The position numbers and the translations under genes were made by a program. DNA of 64,000 nt. Source: an uncultured bacterium (GTDB lineage Bacteria > Planctomycetota > Phycisphaerae > Phycisphaerales > SM1A02). The stretch lies in contig CAITDI010000011.1 in assembly GCA_903891095.1 (NCBI GenBank), positions 1-64,000 of the forward strand. Direction: 5' to 3'. Every line of letters begins with the position of its first letter. The first letter of the stretch is position 1. Below, in pieces: positions 42,787-55,850 of this stretch. The notes under the pieces were generated by a model that was given only the letters and a program-made list of their open reading frames with translations, ran no database searches and had not been told where the DNA came from.

Positions 42787-44835
42787 ATGGATCGCATCCG
42801 AAGCATCATCGCCCTCGCGCGCCGGCAGCTTGTGATCGCCGCGCTTGCCGACGCCATCGCATGGGGACTCGTCTCCGCGTCGATCGTCGCGTTGCTCGCC
42901 GTTGCGTTCGTCAAGATCGGCGGCGATCGCCTGCCCGCGATCGCGCAGCAGCCGAGTTCGGTGTACGCGCTGGTCGCGGCGGCGCTCGTGATCGGCACCG
43001 CGGTTGCGTTCGCGCTGCGCCGTCGCGCGATGCCGTCCGAAGCGAGCCTCGCGATCCGCGTCGACGAGCGCCTCAAGCTTGAGGAACGATTGACCACCGC
43101 GCTCGCGCTCGAGCGCTCGACCGATTCGTACGCGCGCGCCGCCGTCGCCGACGCCGTCGAGAAGGCGTCCGACCCGGCGCTGCCTGCGCGCGTGCGCGCG
43201 GCGTTCCCCGTCAAGGTGCCCGCGCGCGGTCTGTGGTCTGCGGCTGTCCTCGCGCTGGCGATCGTCGCGCAGATGTTCGTCCCCGCGCGCGCCTGGCCGC
43301 AGGACGAGAAGAAGGCCGAGCCCGTCGGCCTCGCCGCCAAGAAGCCCGCCGAAGAAGCGATCGAGCGCCTCAAGCAGGAGGCCGAGAGTTCGAAGGCGCT
43401 TCCGCAGGATGTCCGCGACGCGATGAACGGCCTCGCGAAGAACGCCGAGCCCAAGGTCGGCGGCGAGGCCAGCGAAAGCGACGAGCGCCGCGAGGCGATC
43501 CGACGCATGAGCGAGCTGCAGAAAAAGCTCGACGAGGTGCGCAAGTCCGACCAGGCGCGCGCGGCCGAGGCGCTCAAGCGCGATCTCGCCGACCTGCAGC
43601 AGTCCGACGGCGAACTCTCCAAGCTCACCGAGGCGCTCTCCAAGGGCGAGTTCAGCGCCGCCAAGCAGGAACTCGGCGACCTCAACAAGAAGATGGAGTC
43701 GGGCGAGATGAGCGAGGCCGAGAAGGCCGCGACCAAGGAAGCGCTCGAGAAGATGGCGAAGTCGCTCGAGAACCTCGCCAAGAACCAGCAGTCGATGAAG
43801 GACGCGCTCGAGCAGGCCGGCCTCGACGCGCAGCTCGCGAACAACCCCGAAGCGCTGCAGCGCGCGATCGAACAGGCGCAGAACCTGAGCGAGCAGCAGC
43901 GCGCGGAACTCATGAAGACCGCCAAGGCCGCCAAGGTCAGCCAAGAGACGCTCAAGAAGCTCGCCTCCGCCGCCAAGAAGGCCGCGCAGAAGAAGCAAGG
44001 CGAGAAGAAGCAGCAGCAGCAGCAGAAGGGCCAGCAGCAACAGGGCCAGCAGCAGCAGGGTCAACAAGGTCAGCAGCAACAAGGTCAGCAGCAGCAGGGC
44101 CAGCAGCAGCAGGGCCAGCAGCAGGACCAGCAAGGTCAGCAGCAGCAAGGCCAGCAGGGCCAACAGGGTCAACAAAGCCAGCAGGGCCAGCAAGGACAGC
44201 AAGGCCAGCAGGGCCAGCAAGGCAAGGAAGGCGAGAAGGGCGAGCAAGGCCAAGACGGCGAGCAAGGCCAGCAAGGCATGTCCGAGCTCGGCGACACGCT
44301 CAGCGATCTCGAGGCCACCCAGCAGATGATGGAGGAGGCCGAAGCGCTTTCGAACATGACCGACCAAGAGAGCCAGTCGCTTGGTGAAGGCATGGCGAAG
44401 GGCGGACAGCCCGGCCAGACGCCATCGCAGCAGCAGGGCCAGCAGATGACTCCTGGTCAGCAGCGCGGTCCGCAAGGCGGACCGGCGCAGGGCGGCAACA
44501 CCGGCAAGTCCAAGACCCCCACCGGCACCAAGACCCAGAAGGCCAAGTCGAAGAACGCCGGCGGCGATGTGATCGCGCGCCAGTTGATCGAGAACCCCAA
44601 CCCCGAGGTCGGCGCGAGCGTGATGCCGTCCGAGTCGACGGGCGAGGCCGCTGCGGGCGGCTCTGGTTCGGCGGTCAACGAGGAGCAGGTGCCCGCGCAT
44701 CTCAAGGACGCGCACAAGCACTACTTTGGCACGCTCAAGCGCGAACTCGCGAAGAAGCCGAGCGGCGCCGCGCCCGCCGCGCCCGCGGCGGCTCCTGCGC
44801 CTCCTGCGTCTCCCGCAACGCCCAGCAAACCGTGA
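42787..44835 (+). CDS. membrane protein with coiled coil and Gln/Gly-rich region (DUF4175-like layout)
   Basis: This 682-residue protein has two N-terminal transmembrane segments (about 18-42 and 58-76) and a third near 147-168 (GLWSAAVLALAIVAQMF). A long charged, probably coiled-coil region follows (about 180-400, many EAL, KKLDEV, KMAKSLENLAKNQQ). From about residue 408 to 495 it is almost pure Gln and Gly (units QQQG and GQQ), and the rest is Pro/Ala/Gly/Lys-rich. The layout recalls DUF4175-type proteins with EQQQ-rich tails that sit near MoxR/vWA operons in other bacteria, but this is pattern-based. Gln is encoded by both CAG and CAA, so selection on protein rather than simple DNA slippage is likely. 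Function unknown. Confidence 0.75.
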   Translation: MDRIRSIIALARRQLVIAALADAIAWGLVSASIVALLAVAFVKIGGDRLPAIAQQPSSVYALVAAALVIGTAVAFALRRRAMPSEASLAIRVDERLKLEERLTTALALERSTDSYARAAVADAVEKASDPALPARVRAAFPVKVPARGLWSAAVLALAIVAQMFVPARAWPQDEKKAEPVGLAAKKPAEEAIERLKQEAESSKALPQDVRDAMNGLAKNAEPKVGGEASESDERREAIRRMSELQKKLDEVRKSDQARAAEALKRDLADLQQSDGELSKLTEALSKGEFSAAKQELGDLNKKMESGEMSEAEKAATKEALEKMAKSLENLAKNQQSMKDALEQAGLDAQLANNPEALQRAIEQAQNLSEQQRAELMKTAKAAKVSQETLKKLASAAKKAAQKKQGEKKQQQQQKGQQQQGQQQQGQQGQQQQGQQQQGQQQQGQQQDQQGQQQQGQQGQQGQQSQQGQQGQQGQQGQQGKEGEKGEQGQDGEQGQQGMSELGDTLSDLEATQQMMEEAEALSNMTDQESQSLGEGMAKGGQPGQTPSQQQGQQMTPGQQRGPQGGPAQGGNTGKSKTPTGTKTQKAKSKNAGGDVIARQLIENPNPEVGASVMPSESTGEAAAGGSGSAVNEEQVPAHLKDAHKHYFGTLKRELAKKPSGAAPAAPAAAPAPPASPATPSKP

Positions 44836-44881
44836 ATCGATCGCGGGCGCGTCGTCGCGTCCGTCAGGAGGATGGAGCAGC

Positions 44882-46000
44882 GTGCAGTCGCGTCGAGAGG
44901 TGATCCGTTCGCTCGGTCAGTCGATCGGTGCACTCGCAGTTGCGGGTGCATGCACGCGTTGGATGACCGGCTGCGGCACGGGCTCGCGCGGCACGCGCGT
45001 GGTCGGCTACATCTCTGCGGACGATGTGCTCGCGCGCGAGGTGCTCGCCGCGTGCGCGCGCGCGACGGGCGTCGAGGTCGACGCCGTGTACGACACCGAG
45101 GCCACCAAGACGACCGCGCTCGAGAACCGCATTCGCGCCGAGCGCGACCGGCCGCGCGCGGATTTCTTCTGGAGCTCGGAGGGTTTCGCGGCGGTGCGGC
45201 TTGCGGCCGACGGTTTGCTTGCGGAGTTGCCCGAGCCGCTCTGGAGCGCGTGGCCCGAGGCGCATCGCGACGGTGCGCGCCGCTGGCTCGCGTTCGCGGC
45301 GCGCGCGCGGGTGGTGGTGGCGCGGAAGGCGTCGGCGGCGTCGGCGTCCTCGGCGTCATCGCCCGCGCCGATCGCGCAGTGGTCCGATCTCGCTGCAAGC
45401 GATCGCAAGGTTGCTGGATCGGGCGCTGCGCAGTCGATCTCGATCGCCATCGCCGACCCGCGCTTCGGCACGACCAACGGACATCTCGCGGCGCTCGAGC
45501 AGGCGTGGGGCGCTGCGGCGCTCGACGCGTGGCTCGACGGACTGCGCGCGAACGGCGTGCGCGTGCTTCCTGGCGGCAACGCCGCGACGGTCGACGCGGT
45601 CGCGGGCGGCGAGTGCACGTACGGCCTCACCGATTCCGACGACGCGCTCGCTGCGATCGAGCGCGGGCTCCCGCTTGAGATGTTCGTGCCGCGCACGCTC
45701 GCCGCGGGCAGCGCGGGCGGCGGCACGATGCTCACGCCGAACACCGTGTCGCTCATCGCCAACGCGCCCGGAAATCGCGCGGCCGCCGAGAAGGTCGTCG
45801 CGTGGCTCGTCTCGCCCGAGTGCGAGGAGCTCATCGCGCGCTCGCCGTCGCGCAACCTCCCGCTCGGGCCGAAGGCGCGCGTCGCGGCGGCGCCGTTTGC
45901 CGAGCCCGATCCGCTGCGATTCGATGTCGCGCGCGCGAGCGAGCGGGCGATGCAGGTGGCCGTTGCCGCCAAGAACCGCCTCGAGGGCAAGCGCGCGTGA
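44882..46000 (+). CDS. iron(III)-type ABC transporter substrate-binding protein
   Basis: This 372-residue exported protein belongs to the FbpA/AfuA-type (cluster D) solute-binding family. A basic N terminus (QSRREVIRSLGQSIGAL) precedes the hydrophobic segment, and a lipidation cysteine is possible in AVAGAC or WMTGCG. Family-like segments are VVGYISADDVLAREVLAACARATGVEVDAVYDTEATKT, FFWSSEGFAAVRLAADGLLA, GLTDSDDALAAIERG and FVPRT...GGGTMLTPNTVSLI (shown here only in parts). Start is GTG at 44882 with AGGAGG 10 nt upstream; an ATG at 44872 is in another frame. The stop overlaps the permease GTG (GTGA). It probably binds ferric iron or a similar anion or metal complex; the Tyr ligands typical of FbpA are not obvious. 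Confidence 0.8.
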   Translation: MQSRREVIRSLGQSIGALAVAGACTRWMTGCGTGSRGTRVVGYISADDVLAREVLAACARATGVEVDAVYDTEATKTTALENRIRAERDRPRADFFWSSEGFAAVRLAADGLLAELPEPLWSAWPEAHRDGARRWLAFAARARVVVARKASAASASSASSPAPIAQWSDLAASDRKVAGSGAAQSISIAIADPRFGTTNGHLAALEQAWGAAALDAWLDGLRANGVRVLPGGNAATVDAVAGGECTYGLTDSDDALAAIERGLPLEMFVPRTLAAGSAGGGTMLTPNTVSLIANAPGNRAAAEKVVAWLVSPECEELIARSPSRNLPLGPKARVAAAPFAEPDPLRFDVARASERAMQVAVAAKNRLEGKRA

Positions 46001-48756
46001 CGACTCGCCGCAGGAGTGCTTCCGCATCGCAGATCGCCGCGCTCGCCGCGGTGGCAGCCGTCGCGTTGATCGTGCTCGCCGCCATCGCGTGGCCGTTGCT
46101 CGCGCTCGTGGCGAAGTCGTCGGGCGTGGTCGCCGCGACGGCCTCGCGCGACGGCCGTGGCGTCGGCCTCACGCTCGGCGCGGGCGAACTCTCGACGCCG
46201 CTCGCGCTGTTCACGCGCAGCGTCGCGTACGCCGCGTGCGCCGCGCTCGCGGGACTCGCCGTCGCGTGGCCCGCGTCGCGCGCGGTGCGCATGCGCGCGT
46301 CGGCCAACCGCGCGCTCGCGGGGCTGATCCTGCTTCCGATCGCGCTGCCGCCGTGGCTGCTCTATGCGGCGCTGTGGATGTCCATGGGCCCGGGCACGGC
46401 GGTCGGCGACTTCTGCGAGCGGCGCGATCTCGTGAGCGCGCTGCGTGTGGTGCTGCTTGCGATCGCGCTCCTCGTGTGGTGCGCGGCTGCGTCGTTCGCC
46501 GTGCTTTCGTGCGCTGCGCCGAGGGCGATCGCGACGGACGCTCGGCTTCTCGCGCTTGACGGCGCGGGAGTGCTTGCGCGCGTCCGTTCTGCGCTTGCGC
46601 GCGACGCGCGGAGCCTGCTCGTCGCGGGAGTCGCGTGCGCGGTGTTCCTGCTCGGCGAGACGACGGTGTTCGATCTCGCGCAGGTCGCGACGTATGGATT
46701 CGAGCTCCGCACCCTCGACGCGATCGGCGGAACGCCGCGCGACATCGTGCTCGCGTCGCTGCCGGTGGTCGCGCTGGTCGCGGTCGCGATCGCGCTGGTC
46801 CCGCGCATCGCGCGATCGGCGGGCGATGACGCACTGCGCGCGCGTGGCGCGTCAGGTCGCGGACCGAGCGCAGCCGCAGCCGCCGCTGCCTCACGCCTTC
46901 CCGCCAACGCCGTCCTCGTCGCTTGCGCGCTGCCGATCGTCGGCGTGTTGCTCGCGCTTGCGCGCGTGATCGTGTCGGTTCCGCGCATGTCGGACTTTGT
47001 CGCGCTGCATGGGCGTGCGTTCATGAGCACGCTCGGCGTTGCGCTGTCGGCGGCGGCGCTCGTCGCGCTCCTCGCCGCGGGGATCCGCGCACTGCTTGCG
47101 GCGCGCGCGCTGTGGCTTTGTCGCGCCGCGCGCGTTGCCGCGCTCGCCTGCGCATTTGGCGGACTGATCCCCGGCACGATCTCCGCGCTTTCGATGGAGA
47201 GCGCGTACAACTCGGCGCTCTTCGCGTGGATCTACGACACGCCGATGGTCGTCGTGCTCGTTCTCGTCGCGCGCGCGGCGCCCGTTGCGGCGATCGTCGC
47301 GCTGGCGCTCGACGCGCGCGAACATCGCACTGCGCGCTGGCTCCGCGAGATCGACGGCGCGTCGGTCGCCGCGATCTGGCGCGGCATCCGCGGTGAACTC
47401 GCGATCGCCGCCGCCGCGTCGGGCGCGCTCGCCTTCGCATGGAGCCTTGGTGAACTCACGGCGAGCGGCCGCGTGGTCCCGCCGGGAATGGCGTGGCTCG
47501 CCACCGACATCCTGAACTCCGTCCACTACCAGCGACCCGACACGGTCATCCTCGCGGCGTCGGCGCTGGTGGTCGCGGCGCTGCCCGCGGTGCTCGCGCT
47601 GGGGCGGTTCGTGTCGCGCATGCAGGTCGCGCGCGTCGCGGCGTTGACGCTTTCGGCGACCCTTGCGGCGACCCTTTCGGCCACGCTTCTCACGCTCGCC
47701 CCTGGATGCAGCGACGCGGCGCCCGCCGCCGCCAGCGATTCCGAGACCGACCGCGAGATGGACGCCCTCCGCCGCACGGCGCCTTCGGTCGCGACGCCGC
47801 TCGCGGTCGAGTCGCAGTTCGCAGGCGTCGGCCGCGGCAAGGGGCAGTTCGTCGGGCCGCGCGTCGTCGCGTTCGACAACGGCGACGGGTCGACGTTCGT
47901 GATCGACAAGGACGCGCGCGTCCAGCGCATCATGCGCGACGGCGAGGTCCGCAACGAGTGGCGCATGCCCAAGTGGGATCGCGGCAAGCCGGTCGGCGCG
48001 AGCATCGCGCCCGATGGTTCGCTGGTCGTCGCCGACACGCACGAGCATCGCATCCTCTGCTACGACGCGCAGGGCAAGCGGCTGTGGGAGCTCGGCAGCT
48101 ACGGGCTCGAGCCTGGGCAGTTCGTGTATCCGACCGACATCGCCTTCGCGCCCGATGGGCGGATGTTCATCGCCGAGTACGGCGGCAACGACCGCATCCA
48201 GGTGTTCGGGCCCGACCGAAGGTTCCTCTACGCGTTCGGGCGGTGCGGCATCGGCGACGGCGAGTTCCTCCGCCCGCAGTCGATCGCCTTCGATGCCGAG
48301 CGCGACGAGCTCTACGTCGCCGACGCGGGCAACCACCGCATTCAGGTGTTCACGGCCGACGGCGAGCACCGTCGGAACATCGGGCGCCTCGGATCAGGGC
48401 CGGGCTCGGCGCCGGGCGAGTTCTCCTACCCGTTCGGCCTCGTCCTCGAGATCGGCGGCCGCGCCATCGACAGCCGTGCGGCTGGCGAGTGCTCCGACCC
48501 CGCGCTCGCCCGCGACGGCCGCCGCACGATCGTCGTCGCCGAGCACGCCAATCACCGCGTCCAGCGCCTCGACGCGAACACGGGCGAAGTCCTCGCGATC
48601 GCCGGCGGACTGGGCAACGAGCAGGGCAGGCTCAAGTATCCTTGGGCTCTCGAGCCGGCAGGGCTCGCGGCCGACGGCTCGCAGCGCTACGCGGTCTGCG
48701 ACAACGGCAATTCGCGCATCGTGTTCTTCACGCTTCCGGATGGTTCGCGCAAGTAG
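45997..48756 (+). CDS. ABC permease (FbpB-like) fused in frame to an NHL-repeat lipoprotein-like domain
   Basis: This 919-residue open frame begins at GTG 45997, overlapping the binding-protein stop. Residues 1-540 form an FbpB-type permease with about twelve helices and two EAA-type loops (ALDGAGVLARVRSALAR and EIDGASVAAIWRGIRGE). At residue 542 an internal ATG (base 47620) starts a segment that looks exactly like a lipoprotein signal: 29 residues of Ala/Leu/Thr ending LAPGC (Cys571). After it come six or so NHL beta-propeller repeats, for example LVVADTHEHRILCYDAQGK, FIAEYGGNDRIQVFGP and LYVADAGNHRIQVF. There is no stop between the parts. It may be a true fusion, or two proteins with internal initiation, or a lost stop codon. 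No ATPase gene lies nearby. Confidence 0.8.
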   Translation: MTTRRRSASASQIAALAAVAAVALIVLAAIAWPLLALVAKSSGVVAATASRDGRGVGLTLGAGELSTPLALFTRSVAYAACAALAGLAVAWPASRAVRMRASANRALAGLILLPIALPPWLLYAALWMSMGPGTAVGDFCERRDLVSALRVVLLAIALLVWCAAASFAVLSCAAPRAIATDARLLALDGAGVLARVRSALARDARSLLVAGVACAVFLLGETTVFDLAQVATYGFELRTLDAIGGTPRDIVLASLPVVALVAVAIALVPRIARSAGDDALRARGASGRGPSAAAAAAASRLPANAVLVACALPIVGVLLALARVIVSVPRMSDFVALHGRAFMSTLGVALSAAALVALLAAGIRALLAARALWLCRAARVAALACAFGGLIPGTISALSMESAYNSALFAWIYDTPMVVVLVLVARAAPVAAIVALALDAREHRTARWLREIDGASVAAIWRGIRGELAIAAAASGALAFAWSLGELTASGRVVPPGMAWLATDILNSVHYQRPDTVILAASALVVAALPAVLALGRFVSRMQVARVAALTLSATLAATLSATLLTLAPGCSDAAPAAASDSETDREMDALRRTAPSVATPLAVESQFAGVGRGKGQFVGPRVVAFDNGDGSTFVIDKDARVQRIMRDGEVRNEWRMPKWDRGKPVGASIAPDGSLVVADTHEHRILCYDAQGKRLWELGSYGLEPGQFVYPTDIAFAPDGRMFIAEYGGNDRIQVFGPDRRFLYAFGRCGIGDGEFLRPQSIAFDAERDELYVADAGNHRIQVFTADGEHRRNIGRLGSGPGSAPGEFSYPFGLVLEIGGRAIDSRAAGECSDPALARDGRRTIVVAEHANHRVQRLDANTGEVLAIAGGLGNEQGRLKYPWALEPAGLAADGSQRYAVCDNGNSRIVFFTLPDGSRK

Positions 48757-48795
48757 TTGGCGCGGCTGGTGAGACTGGGTGGGATTCGCCACAGC

Positions 48796-51756
48796 ATGCA
48801 CTTCGAACGCCCCGCATTCCTCCTGCTCCTCGCGCTGCTCGTGCCCGTGCTCGTGCTCGCGTGGCGCAGCCGTCGCAGCGAGGAACCGTGGAAGTGGTGG
48901 ACCAGCCTCGCGCTCCGCACGCTCGTCGTCCTCGCGCTCGTGCTCGCGCTCGCGCAGCCGATGTTCGTGCGCCGCGGCGAGGCGCTCACGACGGCGTTCG
49001 TGCTCGACCGCAGCCGCTCGATCCCCGCGCCGCTGCTGCAGCGCGCGCGCGACTTTGCCAAGACGCTCGTCACCAACAAGAAGAAGCCCGAGGACCGCGT
49101 CGCCGCCGTCACCGTTGGCCGCGAGGCGGAGATCTCCGCGCAGCCCGACGCGCGCTCGATCATCGCGGACGAAGAGCACTCGGGCGACCGCGACGCGACC
49201 AACCTCGCGGGCGGCATCCGCCAGGCGCTCTCGATCCTGCCGCCCGACACCGCCAAGCGCATCGTGATCCTCTCCGACGGCAACGAGAACATCGGCAACG
49301 CGCTCGCCGAGGCCGATGTCGCCAAGTCCAACGGCATCCCGATCGACGTCGTGCCGATCGAGTACGAGTCACCGAACGAAGTCGTGTTCGAGTCGATCAA
49401 GGCGCCGCCGCGCGCGCGACCTGGGCAGACGGCAGAACTTCGCCTGCTGCTCCGCAGCCAGCGCGCCGCGAAGGGCACCGTGTTTCTCAAGGAGGGCGGC
49501 CGGCCCGTCGACCTCGATCCCGATGCGCCAGGCGCGGGACTCGCCGTCGACCTCGAGGCGGGACCGCGCACGATCACCGTGCCGTACCCGCTTGAAGGCG
49601 CGGGCACGCGGCGGTTCGAGGCGGTGTTCGAGCCCGCCGACCAGACGCAGGACGCGATCCTCGAGAACAACCGCGCGATGGCCGTGACATTCGTCGACGG
49701 CAGCGGCCGCGTGCTCGTGGTCGACCCGACCAGCGGCAACGACACGCGCAGCTTTGTCGACGCGCTCGCGAAGACCTCGATCGAGCCCGTCCTCGTCACG
49801 CCCGATGCGCTCACGCAGGGCGGCGACTTCCTGAGCGGGTTCGACGCGATCGTGCTCGCGAACGTCCCGCGCTGGTCGATCGACGGCGAGACCGACCGCC
49901 TGCTCAAGGCGTATGTGCACGACCTCGGCGGCGGACTGCTCATGCTCGGCGGCGACCAGAGCTTTGGCGCGGGCGGCTGGATCGACTCCGACACCGCGAG
50001 CGTGCTGCCCGTCAAGCTCGATCCGCCCGCGACGCGCCAGATGGTGCGCGGCGGACTCGTGCTGATCGTCCACTCGTGCGAGATGCCGCAGGGCAACTAC
50101 TGGGCGCAGCAGGTCTCGATCGCCGCGATCGAGGCGCTCACGCGGCTCGACCTGATCGGCATCATCACGCTCGTGAGCGGCCCCGAGTGGGCGCTCCCGC
50201 TGCAGGAAGCGGGCGACAAGTCGAAGGCGATCGCCGCCGCGCGCTCGATGGTCGTCGGCGACATGTTCGACTTCGACAGCTCGGTCGCGATGGCCGAGAA
50301 GGCGCTCAGCGATTCGAAGGCGGGCCAGCGCCACATCATCATCATCTCCGACGGCGACCCCGCGCCGCCGAGCGCCGCGACGCTCGCGCGCGTCAAGGCC
50401 GCCAAGATCACCATCTCGACCGTCATGGTCAGCGGCCACGGCACGCAGCAGGACTACGTGAACATGAAGTTCGCCGCCGAGGAGACGGGCGGGCGCTTCT
50501 ACGAGGTCACGAACCCCAAGGAACTCCCGAAGATCTTCACGAAGGAAGCGGCGGTGGTCTCGCGCTCGCTGATCGTCGAAGGCGAGTTCGCGCCGCAGAT
50601 CGCGCCGTCGACGTCGGGCCCGCTGCGCGGCGTGACGGGCGTGCCCGGGCTTTCGGGCTACATCCTGTCCGTGCCGCGCGAAGGCCTCGCGCAGGTGCAG
50701 ATCTCGAACAAGACCGAGGAAGGCGTCGACCCGATCTTCGCGTGGTGGAACCACGGCCTCGGCCGCTCGGTGATCTTCGCGTCCGACACGGGCGCGCGCT
50801 GGACCAAGCAGTGGACCTCGTGGGGCGAGTACCGCGCGTTCTGGGAGCAGACGGTGCGCTGGCTGCTGCGACCCGCGGTGCCCGCGAACGCGCAGGTGCG
50901 GACGCGCGTCGAAGGCGAGACGGCGATCGTCGAACTCGAGGCGACTGCTGCATCGGGCGGCTTCGCGACCAACCTCGATCCCGAGGCGATGAGCGTCGGC
51001 CCGACGGGCACGACCTCGCCGCTCGTCGTCGTGCAGACCGGACCAGGTCGCTGGCGCAGCGAGTTCCCCGTCGCGGAGGCGGGCGCGTATCTCGTCAACT
51101 TCAGCCTCGGCAAGGGCGAGGACGGCAGGCGTTCGAGCGTGCAGGCGTCGGTGAGTGTGCCGTACCCGAAGGAGTTCCGCACCGTGCGCGACAACCGCGC
51201 GCTGCTCGAGCAGATCGCCGACAAGACGGGCGGCCGCGTGCTCTCGCTTGCGTCGGCGCAGGGCGTCGATGGATTCCTGCGCGAGGGGCTGCCGATCCCC
51301 GAGAGCGCGCGGCGCATCTGGGATCTGATGGCGATCGCGGCCGCGGTGCTCTTCCTGCTCGATGTCGCGGTGCGCCGCGTCGCGATCGACTGGGCGGGTG
51401 TCCGAAAGGACGCGTCCGACGCGGTCGCCGTCCGCAAGGTCGGCGACGGAACCGTCGCCGCGTGGAAGAAGGCGCGCGCGAAGAGCGGCGAGTCTGCATC
51501 GACGACTCCCGCCGCCAGCGACGCGATGCGCAAGGCGATGGAGGAAGGTCCGTCGCTCGACGTGCGCAACGAAGTCAAGGACGACGGCGCCGCCGCGCGC
51601 GCGCAGGCAGCTCGCGCGGCAGGCGGCGACAAGCCCGCCGACGATGCGGCCGCGAAGCCCGAGGCCGACGAGAACACGACCTCGCGCCTGCTCCGTGCGA
51701 AGCGCCGCGCGACCGGTGGCGACGACGCCGATGGCGGAGGCCCGCGTGGCAGCTGA
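48796..51756 (+). CDS. BatA-like membrane protein with two vWA regions and a glutamine amidotransferase-like domain
   Basis: This 986-residue protein opens with the BatA-type motif FERPAFLLLLALLVPVLVLAW and has a second helix near residues 48-65. A first vWA domain (about 70-200) has a DxSxS-like MIDAS motif, DRSRSIP. A glutamine-amidotransferase-like region (about 310-420) contains GGGLLMLGGDQSFGAGGW. A second vWA (about 425-600) has HSCEMPQGNY in place of DxSxS, so its metal site is degenerate, while IIIISDGDP is kept. Beta-sandwich regions and a C-terminal helix (about 855-870) precede a low-complexity Ala/Lys tail. The start at 48796 fits the BatA opening. It is the first gene of a MoxR operon. 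The MoxR gene begins inside its last codons. Confidence 0.85.
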   Translation: MHFERPAFLLLLALLVPVLVLAWRSRRSEEPWKWWTSLALRTLVVLALVLALAQPMFVRRGEALTTAFVLDRSRSIPAPLLQRARDFAKTLVTNKKKPEDRVAAVTVGREAEISAQPDARSIIADEEHSGDRDATNLAGGIRQALSILPPDTAKRIVILSDGNENIGNALAEADVAKSNGIPIDVVPIEYESPNEVVFESIKAPPRARPGQTAELRLLLRSQRAAKGTVFLKEGGRPVDLDPDAPGAGLAVDLEAGPRTITVPYPLEGAGTRRFEAVFEPADQTQDAILENNRAMAVTFVDGSGRVLVVDPTSGNDTRSFVDALAKTSIEPVLVTPDALTQGGDFLSGFDAIVLANVPRWSIDGETDRLLKAYVHDLGGGLLMLGGDQSFGAGGWIDSDTASVLPVKLDPPATRQMVRGGLVLIVHSCEMPQGNYWAQQVSIAAIEALTRLDLIGIITLVSGPEWALPLQEAGDKSKAIAAARSMVVGDMFDFDSSVAMAEKALSDSKAGQRHIIIISDGDPAPPSAATLARVKAAKITISTVMVSGHGTQQDYVNMKFAAEETGGRFYEVTNPKELPKIFTKEAAVVSRSLIVEGEFAPQIAPSTSGPLRGVTGVPGLSGYILSVPREGLAQVQISNKTEEGVDPIFAWWNHGLGRSVIFASDTGARWTKQWTSWGEYRAFWEQTVRWLLRPAVPANAQVRTRVEGETAIVELEATAASGGFATNLDPEAMSVGPTGTTSPLVVVQTGPGRWRSEFPVAEAGAYLVNFSLGKGEDGRRSSVQASVSVPYPKEFRTVRDNRALLEQIADKTGGRVLSLASAQGVDGFLREGLPIPESARRIWDLMAIAAAVLFLLDVAVRRVAIDWAGVRKDASDAVAVRKVGDGTVAAWKKARAKSGESASTTPAASDAMRKAMEEGPSLDVRNEVKDDGAAARAQAARAAGGDKPADDAAAKPEADENTTSRLLRAKRRATGGDDADGGGPRGS

Positions 51757-52840
51757 GCCCGCGCCCAACTACTCCGCCGATGAACGCGACCTCGACGGCG
51801 CGGGCATCGACGACGTCGCCGAGGCGCGGCGCCGCTGCGAGGCGTTTCGCAAGATCTTCGCGCGGCTCCGCAGCGAGGTCGGCAAGAGCCTCGTCGGCCA
51901 GCGCGAGGTCGTCGATCTCGCGCTCGTCACGCTCTTCGCCGACGGACATCTCCTCCTCGAAGGCGTGCCTGGCCTCGGCAAGACGCTCCTCGTGCGCTCG
52001 CTCGCGGCGGCGACGGGGCTCGGCTTCTCGCGCATCCAGTTCACGCCCGATGTGATGCCCGCCGACATCACGGGCACGAGCATCCTCGTCGAGGACGAGT
52101 CCGCGGGGCGCCGCTCGATCCAGTTCCGCCCAGGGCCGCTGTTCGCGCAGCTGGTCCTCGCCGACGAGATCAACCGCGCGAGCCCCAAGACGCAGTCCGC
52201 GCTCCTCGAGGCGATGCAGGAGCGCTCGGTCACGAGCGGCGGCGAGACGCGCCCGCTGGGGCGGCCGTTCTTCGTGATGGCGACGCAGAATCCGATCGAG
52301 CAGGAGGGCACGTTTCCGCTGCCCGAGGCGCAGCTCGACCGCTTCCTGCTCAAGGTCGATGTGCCGCCGCCCGACCGCGAGACGCTGCGCGAGGTGCTCG
52401 AGCGCACGACCAAGACCGAGCTCGTCATGCCGTCGCAGGTGCTCGACGCGCGCGCGATCATCGCCGCGCAGAAGCTCGCGCGCCGCATCCCGATGGCGCC
52501 CGAGGTCCAGGACTGGATCGTGCGCCTCGTGCTCGGCACGCATCCAGGCGGCGAGTTCTGCAGCGACGAGAACGCGCGGCTGATCAGGATCGGCGCGAGT
52601 CCGCGCGCGGCGCAGGCGATCGCCTCGTGCTCGCGCGTGGTCGCGCTCATGGCGGGTCGCTACGCGGTGAGCTTTGACGACGCGCGCAAGGTCGCGCGCG
52701 CCGCGCTGCGCCATCGCCTGCACCGGTCGTTCGAGGCCGAGGCCGAAGGCGTGTCGAACGACGAGATCGCGCGCCGCGTGATCGCCGCGACGCCGACGGA
52801 ATACGCGCGAATCGGCGCCGCGAAGGGCGGTGTCGCATGA
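51746..52840 (+). CDS. MoxR family AAA+ ATPase
   Basis: This is a MoxR-type AAA+ ATPase of 364 residues. Walker A is GVPGLGKT, Walker B is LVLADEINRASPKTQSALLEAM with sensor motif ATQNPIEQEGTFPLPEAQLDRF, and the C-terminal AAA lid is present. MoxR proteins act with vWA proteins as chaperones that assemble or mature metal-containing or membrane complexes, and here three vWA-type genes flank it. GTG at 51746 has GGAGG at 51736-51740 with a 5-nt gap. The ATG at 51731 in the same frame lacks a binding site, so GTG is preferred. It overlaps the upstream gene by 11 bp and its stop overlaps the next ATG. Confidence 0.93.
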   Translation: MAAEPAPNYSADERDLDGAGIDDVAEARRRCEAFRKIFARLRSEVGKSLVGQREVVDLALVTLFADGHLLLEGVPGLGKTLLVRSLAAATGLGFSRIQFTPDVMPADITGTSILVEDESAGRRSIQFRPGPLFAQLVLADEINRASPKTQSALLEAMQERSVTSGGETRPLGRPFFVMATQNPIEQEGTFPLPEAQLDRFLLKVDVPPPDRETLREVLERTTKTELVMPSQVLDARAIIAAQKLARRIPMAPEVQDWIVRLVLGTHPGGEFCSDENARLIRIGASPRAAQAIASCSRVVALMAGRYAVSFDDARKVARAALRHRLHRSFEAEAEGVSNDEIARRVIAATPTEYARIGAAKGGVA

Positions 52841-53778
52841 ACGCCGCAAACGCAGCCGGCGCCGGCAGCAGCAAGCCGCTCAAGAAGCTCGACGACCTCC
52901 TCGACTCGACGCTCATGGCCAAGCTCGACGCGATCGACGTCGTGAGCCGCAAGATCTTCTCGGGCAAGCTGCAGGGCGAGCGCCGCTCCAAGCGCCGCGG
53001 ACAGTCGATCGAGTTCGCCGACTACCGCCCGTATGTCCACGGCGACGACCTGCGCTTCGTCGACTGGAACATCTTCGGCCGCCTCGACAAGCTCTTCCTC
53101 AAGATGTTCCTCGAGGAGGAGGACCTCTCGCTCGTGATCGCGCTCGACACCAGCGCGTCGATGCGCGCGGGCAATCCCGATGCGTTCGACTACGCGCGCC
53201 GCGTGGCGATGGCGCTCGCGTACGTCGGCCTCACCAACCAGCACCGCGTGTCGCTCGTCGGGTTCTCGCAAGGCAGGATCGACCGCGCGTCGAACCTCCG
53301 CGGCCGCCGCAAGGCCGCCGATGTCGCGCAGTGGCTCCTCGCGCGCGAGCCCGAGGGGGCGTCGGGCTTCGAGGACGCGATGCGGCTTGTCGGCACCACG
53401 CGGCTCGGCCGCGGCATCATGGTGGTGCTGTCGGATTTCCTCTTCCACGAGGGCTTCGAGAAGGGGCTCGGCATGGTCGCGGGCCGCGGGTTCGACCTGT
53501 ACGCGCTGCAGGTGCTCGCGCCGCAGGTCGCCGATCCCGCGCGCGAAGGCGGCGTGTCGGGCGATCTCGTCCTCGTCGACAGCGAGACCGAGGCGGAGAC
53601 CGAGGTCACCGTCACGCCTGAACTCCTGCGGATCTACCGCGAGCGGCTCGACCGCCTGTGCGGCGCGCTGCGCGGCTACTGCACGCGGCGCGACATCGTG
53701 CACATGGTGGTCGAGACGTCGACGCCGGTCGACACGCTGATGCTGGAGTACTTGCGACGGCGGGGGTTGTTGCGATGA
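52837..53778 (+). CDS. DUF58 (vWA-like) protein
   Basis: This 313-residue DUF58 protein has the core motif ERRSKRRGQSIEFADYRPY followed by HGDDLRFVDWNIFGR, and a vWA-type MIDAS ALDTSASM. It has no membrane helix. DUF58 proteins are the regular partner of MoxR, and the ATGA overlaps with MoxR upstream and with the next vWA gene downstream show tight co-expression. The most likely role is as an adaptor presenting clients to MoxR. The N terminus has about 25 extra residues compared with the minimal domain. Confidence 0.9.
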   Translation: MNAANAAGAGSSKPLKKLDDLLDSTLMAKLDAIDVVSRKIFSGKLQGERRSKRRGQSIEFADYRPYVHGDDLRFVDWNIFGRLDKLFLKMFLEEEDLSLVIALDTSASMRAGNPDAFDYARRVAMALAYVGLTNQHRVSLVGFSQGRIDRASNLRGRRKAADVAQWLLAREPEGASGFEDAMRLVGTTRLGRGIMVVLSDFLFHEGFEKGLGMVAGRGFDLYALQVLAPQVADPAREGGVSGDLVLVDSETEAETEVTVTPELLRIYRERLDRLCGALRGYCTRRDIVHMVVETSTPVDTLMLEYLRRRGLLR

Positions 53779-55850
53779 GCGCGCCGGTACTCCTCGCCGT
53801 CCCATCGCTCCTCGCGGTCACATGGGTCACGCCCGTCGCCGGCGCCGTGCTCGGCGCGGCGATCCTCGCGCCGCTCGTCGCGCTGTGGTTCCTCAAGCTG
53901 CGCCGCAAGCGCCGTGTCGTGTCGAGCACGCTGCTCTGGACGCGCTCGCTCGCGGATCTCCGCGCGAACGCGCCGTTCCAGCGGATCCGATTCAGCTGGC
54001 TGCTGCTCCTGCAGATCCTCGCCGTCGCTGCGATCGCCATCGCGCTCGCGCAGCCCGAGGCGGAGGGCTTTGGCGCGAGCGGCGGACGCCACGTGCTCCT
54101 CATCGACCGCTCCGCGAGCATGAACGCGATCGAGACCGACGACGGCGCGGGCGGCAAGCTCGACAAGCCCGCCGCGCGCCTCGCGCAGGCCAAGCAGGCC
54201 GCGAAGGACCGCGTGCGCGCGCTCCTCGGCGGCGGCTGGTTCTCGAACAGCGGCGGCGATGTGATGGTCATCTCCTTCGGCGCGCGCGCCGAGGTGCGCG
54301 CGCCGTTTACCGACTCGATCGCCACGCTCGAGGCCGCGATCGACGCGATCCAGCCGACCGACGAATCGACGCGCCTCGACGAGGCCGTCGCGCTCGCCCG
54401 CGCGTTCACCACCAACCAGAACCGCAACGACAAGCGCGGCGAGATCACGCAGAACGCCGCCTCCGCCGAGCTGCCCACCATCGAGCTCTACTCCGACGGC
54501 CGCATCGCCGACCTCGGCAAGCTCGCGCTGCGCCCCGGCGAGACGATCGTCTACCACAAGGTCGGCGCGGCCTCGAACAACGCCGCGGTCGTCGCGATCA
54601 GCGCCGAGCGCCCGCCCGACGCGCCTGAGAAGGTGCAGGTCTTCGCCTCGGTCGTGAACCCGATGCCCGAGCCGCGCAGCGTCACGCTGCAGCTTGCGAT
54701 CAACGGCACGGTGCGCTCGATCCTCCCCAAGCCGATCGAGGTCGCGGCCGCGGTCGACCGCGACGGAACCTTCGTGCCCGGCCGCGCGCAGGTGACCTTC
54801 CGCCCGATCGACCAGCCGACCGACGCGTCGATCGAGGTCTCGATCGTCGAGGACGACGCGCTGCGCTCGGACGACGCCGCGATCGCCATCGTCCCGCCGC
54901 CCAAGCGACTCGCGGTGCTGCTCGTCGGCGAGGAGGGCTTCCTCCTCAAGACGCTCCTCGAGGGACTGCCGCTCGAGCGCTTCAACACGATGACCTCCGC
55001 CGAGTTCGACGCGCTGGTCGAGGCGAACGGCGCAGGCGCGTACGACGTGGTCGTCCTCGACGGCGTCGCGCCCAAGAAGCTCACGCCCGGCCGCTACCTC
55101 GCCTTCGGCGCCGCGCCGCCGGTCGACGGGCTCACCGCGTTCGGCACGCACGGCAGCGTGTACGCGCGCTCGGTGCGCGACGAGCATCCGCTGTTTCGTT
55201 CGGCGGGGCTCGACGAGCTCTTCGTGTCGAAGTCGGTCGCGGTGCAGGCGGACCGCAGCTTCCAGGTGCTCGCCGAGAGCGCCGAGGGTCCGCTGGTCGC
55301 GACGCTCGACCGCGCGGAGACGCATGTGGTGTACGTCGCGTTCGATCCGCTCGACTCGAACTGGCCGTTCCAGCGCTCGTTCGTGAACTTCGTCGCCAAC
55401 GCGATCGACTACCTCGGCCGCGCGGGCGACGCGATCGCGGGGCAGGGCGTCGCGCCCGGCGACGCGATCACGCTGCGCCTCCCGCAAGGCGTGCGCGACG
55501 CCGAGATCCTCGCGCCCGACGGCACGAAGGCCAAGATGGCCGTCGACGGCGAAGGCAACGCGTCATGGGGTCCCGCGATGCGCGCGGGGTTGTATCGGAT
55601 CAGTTTCAACGCGCCGGGTGGAAGTGGCGCGAGTGGCGGGGCGGAGCAGCGACTTGCGGCGGTGAACATCTCCGACGCGAACGAAGCGCGCATCGAGCCG
55701 CGCGCCGAGCTCGTCCTCGGCAACACGCAGGTGCAGGGCGTGAACATCGCCGCCACCCGCCGCGGCGCGATGTGGCCATGGGTGCTCGCGCTCGGCCTCC
55801 TCGTGGTCGTGGTCGAGTGGTGGTACTACCAGCGGCAGATTCGGGTGTAG
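53775..55850 (+). CDS. vWA domain membrane protein (BatA N-terminal type)
   Basis: This 691-residue protein has two N-terminal helices (about 18-40 and 73-92, the BatA-type anchor), then a vWA domain with the MIDAS motif LLIDRSASMN (about 109-118) and a probable Thr ligand in PTDESTRLDEA. Beta-rich domains follow, including a DUF-like region with LLVGEEGFLLKTLLEGLP. A C-terminal helix (WPWVLALGLLVVVVEWWYY) anchors the end, so the vWA domain probably lies outside the cytoplasm. It closes the BatA-like/MoxR/DUF58/vWA operon, starting with an ATGA overlap. After the stop at 55850 a 500-bp region consists of repeats. Confidence 0.88.
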   Translation: MSAPVLLAVPSLLAVTWVTPVAGAVLGAAILAPLVALWFLKLRRKRRVVSSTLLWTRSLADLRANAPFQRIRFSWLLLLQILAVAAIAIALAQPEAEGFGASGGRHVLLIDRSASMNAIETDDGAGGKLDKPAARLAQAKQAAKDRVRALLGGGWFSNSGGDVMVISFGARAEVRAPFTDSIATLEAAIDAIQPTDESTRLDEAVALARAFTTNQNRNDKRGEITQNAASAELPTIELYSDGRIADLGKLALRPGETIVYHKVGAASNNAAVVAISAERPPDAPEKVQVFASVVNPMPEPRSVTLQLAINGTVRSILPKPIEVAAAVDRDGTFVPGRAQVTFRPIDQPTDASIEVSIVEDDALRSDDAAIAIVPPPKRLAVLLVGEEGFLLKTLLEGLPLERFNTMTSAEFDALVEANGAGAYDVVVLDGVAPKKLTPGRYLAFGAAPPVDGLTAFGTHGSVYARSVRDEHPLFRSAGLDELFVSKSVAVQADRSFQVLAESAEGPLVATLDRAETHVVYVAFDPLDSNWPFQRSFVNFVANAIDYLGRAGDAIAGQGVAPGDAITLRLPQGVRDAEILAPDGTKAKMAVDGEGNASWGPAMRAGLYRISFNAPGGSGASGGAEQRLAAVNISDANEARIEPRAELVLGNTQVQGVNIAATRRGAMWPWVLALGLLVVVVEWWYYQRQIRV

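Follow-up and report, generated by a model that had tools for sequence, protein, structure and literature searches.

An FbpB-type permease joined in frame to an NHL propeller by a conserved lipobox in Phycisphaerae: a candidate polyprotein

A polytopic membrane protein can be synthesized in one chain with an exported protein: in the cytochrome b/c1 polyprotein (fbcH) of Bradyrhizobium, the two are joined by an internal signal that is cut after translation, by signal peptidase I. By definition, lipoprotein signals are regarded as N-terminal, and prediction programs search for them nowhere else. Here we describe a gene from an uncultured bacterium of the Phycisphaerales (assembly GCA_903891095.1, contig CAITDI010000011.1, positions 1 to 64,000; this stretch of 64,000 nucleotides is referred to as the window), in which an ATP-binding cassette (ABC) permease of the ferric type is continued, within one frame, by an NHL beta-propeller. 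Unlike that of fbcH, the joint between the two halves is a signal-peptidase-II (lipoprotein) site, and its position, embedded behind twelve helices and conserved there, is the most unusual feature of the gene. It is likely that the product is a polyprotein, matured by Lgt and LspA (signal peptidase II) into a 13-helix permease and an anchored propeller lipoprotein. A literature search of limited coverage, which leaves absence unproven, returned no description of such an NHL-permease fusion or of an internal-lipobox polyprotein.

Two groups of described importers resemble parts of this gene. The FbpB/FutB-type ferric permeases, such as that of Thermus FbpBC, share with it the two six-helix halves per chain, the EAA-like loops and a ferric-type binding protein encoded nearby. 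They differ from it in that the window gene has an extra 13th helix with a lipobox, a C-terminal NHL propeller, an operon without an ABC ATPase gene, and a permease half that is not matched by the generic Pfam permease family BPD_transp_1. OpuABC, in turn, also carries a C-terminal outer domain on an extra helix after the transmembrane domain, followed by a short linker (PMC11065425). In contrast to importers of the OpuABC and GlnPQ type, however, the domain fused here is an NHL propeller rather than a substrate-binding domain, the binding protein is encoded by a separate gene, and cleavage is to be expected because the lipobox at the joint is conserved.

One frame, two halves and a joint

The fused gene occupies one frame, open over 919 codons (45997–48756; window coordinates are on the forward strand unless stated otherwise) and encodes, in order, the permease, the embedded lipoprotein signal and the propeller, in a chain of 919 residues. 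The gene starts with GTG and shares four bases (GTGA) with the end of the upstream gene, whose stop codon is TGA. The permease half (45997–47619, residues 1–541) has twelve helices and an EAA-like coupling loop in each of its halves (DGAG near residue 188 and DGAS near residue 453), with the consensus LLxLDGA...R...D in one and LRxLDG... in the other; in the model, the corresponding helices are 176–187 and 444–453. A profile built from 35 relatives matches chain 9j4r_A, from the ferric importer FbpBC of Thermus thermophilus (structure entry 9j4r), over profile positions 22–512 with an E value of 1.8e-20. The modelled residues 28–542 align to the same chain with a Z score of 27.4 and a root-mean-square deviation of 4.2 over 474 residues, and Foldseek gives a TMt of 0.66. 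Profiles of Pfam and NCBIfam leave this half unnamed. Judged by its profile and fold matches, the permease half is an FbpB-type ferric ABC permease.

The joint (47620–47709) begins with Met542 and a single, predicted cytoplasmic Arg, continues with the 13th hydrophobic helix (residues 548–567), and ends in the lipobox LAPG|C571, the codon of Cys571 being 47707–47709. A flexible linker (47710–47790) leads from Cys571 to the propeller; the predicted local distance difference test (pLDDT) falls below 50 at residues 566–583, and in relatives the linker has a median length of 12 residues. The six-bladed NHL propeller (47791–48741, residues 599–915) is matched by Pfam PF01436 (4.6e-26), and its fold by the NHL domain of Thin (Z score of 36.9), TRIM71 and PAL. 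The permease and the six-bladed propeller in one frame, as read in an earlier note on this DNA from the letters alone, thus hold up. A short stretch of the signal helix is duplicated in the window protein (47645–47694, TLSATLAATLSATLL) but not in the aligned relatives.

An AlphaFold model of the fused protein, computed with an alignment of 76 sequences (mean pLDDT of 86.9, predicted template modelling score of 0.83), contains twelve helices on the FbpB plan, a charged turn near residues 542–547, the 13th helix, a disordered linker, and then the propeller. In this predicted topology, helix 13 would run outward and place Cys571 and the propeller at the outer face of the inner membrane, because the coupling helices lie inside, an orientation that we infer from the number of helices and the charged turns. 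Lgt and LspA act on that face of the membrane. The model supports a propeller outside the membrane, as the earlier note had supposed.

Conservation of the lipobox and of the fusion

Homologues were collected across the class Phycisphaerae, giving 128 distinct fused open reading frames and 19 loci at which the two genes lie apart, so that the question raised earlier, whether relatives are fused or are two genes, finds both layouts. In all 128 fused proteins, the joint cysteine ends the 13th hydrophobic stretch, has between one and six Lys or Arg residues upstream, and directly follows a small residue (Gly in 100, Ala in 19 and Ser in 9). The column of Cys571 is invariant among the aligned proteins (76/76), whose mean column identity is 28%, and is the sole invariant column between His510 and Gly612; the residues of the joint other than Cys571 and the small residue at −1 vary freely. 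Under a stricter definition of the signal, which takes in the h-region, the hydrophilic residues that follow, the charge, and the residues at −3 and −1, 115 of the 128 joints qualify, as against 2.7% of control windows of equal length from the same permeases. This difference, together with the conservation across 128 reading frames, excludes a chance joint and bears out the lipoprotein-like character first seen around Cys571.

The lipobox consensus, its tolerated variation and the rules of processing by Lgt and LspA have been described (PMC8048626). The strict textbook pattern, [LV][ASTVI][GAS]C, is found in 43 of the 128 joints, and the relaxed pattern [LVIMAF]x[GAS]C in 111. In the APGC of the window, Ala at −3 and Pro at −2 do not fit the strict pattern, but the Cys and the Gly at −1 are present. 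A charged n-region, a hydrophobic h-region and a lipobox-like end are all present at the joint. The signal does not stand at the N terminus of the primary product: 541 residues precede it, and a conserved internal start was not found. The genome holds one lspA gene and two lgt-like genes. At the position after the lipobox cysteine (+2), the commonest residue is Asp (34 of the 128 joints); in Escherichia coli, Asp at +2 favours retention in the inner membrane.

The fused homologues range down to about 25–35% identity. A search of 100 related genomes found stop-free fused frames in the greater part of the family, as well as in further families of its order; the class-wide search added more of them, plus pairs with a stop between the halves. 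The fusion is also present in two single-contig genomes (G024 and G047) and in the chromosome record CP070772. Outside the class, a phylum-wide search at E ≤ 1e-60 returned propeller-only matches and no intact fusion; a partial exception is one genome (G620), with a stop inside. In one genome there is, moreover, a second, diverged fused copy (G051:C29:22823-25144), a frame of 781 residues.

At the split loci, the permease stops just past its last helix (TM12) and the charged turn, and the propeller gene encodes a lipoprotein signal of its own, with a lipobox cysteine at the end. In L191, the separate propeller signal MMGNVHRWLFILVLLVALGC lies right behind the permease stop, and in L073 the two genes overlap by ATGA. 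These ordinary NHL-propeller lipoproteins beside permease genes (L074, L191, L182 and others) have the same parts as the window gene, in the same order and with the lipobox before the propeller; they differ in having a stop and a new start between the genes, where the window has one frame.

A FastTree phylogeny, computed from the permease and propeller columns without the joint and comprising 122 fused and 18 split members, has at least seven changes between the fused and the split state, six of them forced by well-supported branches, whereas shuffled states give a mean of 17.3; because of the method, the deep branches serve as a guide only. The window falls in a clade of 91 rows, all fused but one (L060), and fused and split members stand as sisters in the pairs L183/L182, L170/L186 and L033/L060. 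In L060, about 4 kb separate the permease from the propeller, which still has its lipobox. Because the fused and split states alternate, both layouts seem to give equivalent products, which suggests, from sequence comparison, that the mature proteins are the same.

Proposed processing at the joint and its alternatives

The proposed course of events is as follows. The gene would yield one membrane polyprotein, with the twelve FbpB helices, a short positive turn in the cytoplasm, and helix 13, which would serve as a complete lipoprotein signal peptide without a conserved start codon of its own and would carry the lipobox cysteine, Cys571, across to the outer side of the inner membrane. There, Lgt would add diacylglycerol to Cys571 and LspA would cleave before it. 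One product would be a ferric-type ABC permease in which the signal helix remains as a 13th transmembrane tail, and the other an NHL-propeller lipoprotein, anchored beside the permease at the same site and in a 1:1 ratio. The chain is thus probably cut in two after its synthesis, which is rare for bacteria. For the class as a whole we incline, with less assurance than for the window gene, to a polyprotein in which a lipoprotein, matured by signal peptidase II, is preceded by a polytopic importer subunit as its N-terminal extension.

Several points weigh against such processing. To our knowledge, the action of Lgt and LspA behind a polytopic N-terminal extension of 540 residues is without experimental precedent. 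The search behind the lipobox count favours a cysteine preceded by Gly, Ala or Ser; the Cys571 column (76/76) is the fairer evidence for that reason and agrees with the count, although it too comes from an alignment. Almost all of the sequences come from metagenome assemblies. In addition, the window has an ATG at codon 542, at which a second start may occur in this species.

Three other explanations have to be set against a cleaved polyprotein. The propeller might stay covalently on the permease through helix 13, with or without lipid on Cys571, as in OpuABC. The predicted topology fits such a tether, and the precedent is close in its parts, OpuABC having a C-terminal extracytoplasmic domain, an anchoring helix and a linker of 11 residues (PMC11065425), as against a median of 12 in the relatives of the window gene. 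However, the anchor and linker of OpuABC are not conserved between species (PMC11065425), whereas Cys571 and the small residue before it are kept in 128 of 128 fused proteins, and a signal-peptidase-II box would not be expected in every one of them if the joint served only to anchor. The presence of LspA in the genome and the separate propeller lipoprotein genes of several sister lineages point the same way. The permanent attachment to the permease envisaged in the earlier note is thus compatible with the topology, but we regard it as unlikely.

Translation might instead start a second time within the frame, so that a separate lipoprotein is made from Met542, or from a nearby GTG or TTG, besides the read-through fusion. 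The window has its ATG at 47620, and some ATG, GTG or TTG lies in the right stretch in 118 of the 128 fused genes. However, control transmembrane windows are nearly as rich in such codons (ATG in 45% of joints as against 40%, any start in 92% as against 83%), the candidate codon and its position vary even within the genus, in the column of Met542, relatives do not have Met, and in ten of the 128 there is no ATG, GTG or TTG where the signal peptide could begin. With start codons unconserved and near control levels, internal initiation is not the shared mechanism, although a single species may differ; the cryptic start suggested earlier does not survive as a general rule, and we consider this explanation less likely still than the tether. 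An assembly or sequencing artefact, or a stop lost recently in one genome, could be entertained for a draft genome of 131 contigs. Stop-free fused frames refute it: they occur within the genus and in most members of its family, and they extend to further families of the order and over the class, so that a slip or a recently lost stop has a negligible likelihood. The same distribution disposes of the earlier suggestion of an error peculiar to this genome. Among these explanations, we therefore keep the polyprotein cut by LspA as the preferred one.

The operon and what the fusion would mean

The fused gene lies in an operon (42787–55850) whose neighbours are kept on the same strand in 35 to 46 of about 50 loci. 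Upstream is the gene of a ferric-type substrate-binding protein (44726–46000, with its true start inside this reading frame; Pfam SBP_bac_8, 2.5e-10), kept in 45 clustered loci; a phmmer search matches its product to the ferric-binding proteins 1y9u, 7w3w, HitA, FbpA and FutA. The next gene downstream encodes a membrane protein with vWA and GATase1-like domains (48757–51756; Pfam VWA_2, 1.7e-15, and GATase1_like, 6.8e-9), whose cluster is kept in 46 loci with a median gap of 15 bases. It is followed by a MoxR-type AAA ATPase (51362–52840, again with the true start inside the reading frame; Pfam AAA_3, 2.1e-60; 38 loci), a gene kept as a sequence cluster in 36 loci (52834–53778), which we take to be DUF58-like from a reading of its sequence rather than from a database match, and a BatA-like protein with a double transmembrane segment and a vWA domain (53772–55850; NCBIfam TIGR02226; 35 loci). 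The operon also includes a Q-rich membrane protein.

An ABC ATPase gene is absent from the operon (42787–55850). As a candidate partner, we considered an orphan ATPase of the PotA/FbpC type elsewhere in the genome (G000:C30:55386-56528, which corresponds to L231:4872-6014), 76–84% identical within the genus. Its distribution does not follow that of the fusion, since it occurs in genomes without the fusion and has no close match in several genomes with it. This gene adjoins what read as nusG and gmk. The ternary system of MoxR, vWA protein and beta-propeller defined previously (PMC7159879) was likewise rejected, on domain layout. The vWA protein has no propeller among its Pfam hits, and the MoxR gene product scores far higher with AAA_3 (202.8 bits) than with bpMoxR (56.1 bits). 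Elsewhere in the window, on the minus strand, a FeoB-like GTPase/permease gene was identified by eye.

In this setting, the propeller would most likely work outside the cytoplasm, as a partner of either the binding protein and permease or the neighbouring vWA/MoxR complex. The gene order places an iron-type importer within a MoxR/vWA operon, and cleavage of the polyprotein would give the propeller a fixed stoichiometry and a fixed place, as a partner connecting ferric-type import with the MoxR/vWA machinery. Because the two genes occur naturally both fused and split, in a series of relatives, the choice between a tethered and a cleaved propeller can be tested directly. If Lgt and LspA do process a signal behind twelve transmembrane helices, annotation has been overlooking lipoprotein sites inside polytopic proteins, and bacteria would use signal peptidase II for the maturation of polyproteins.

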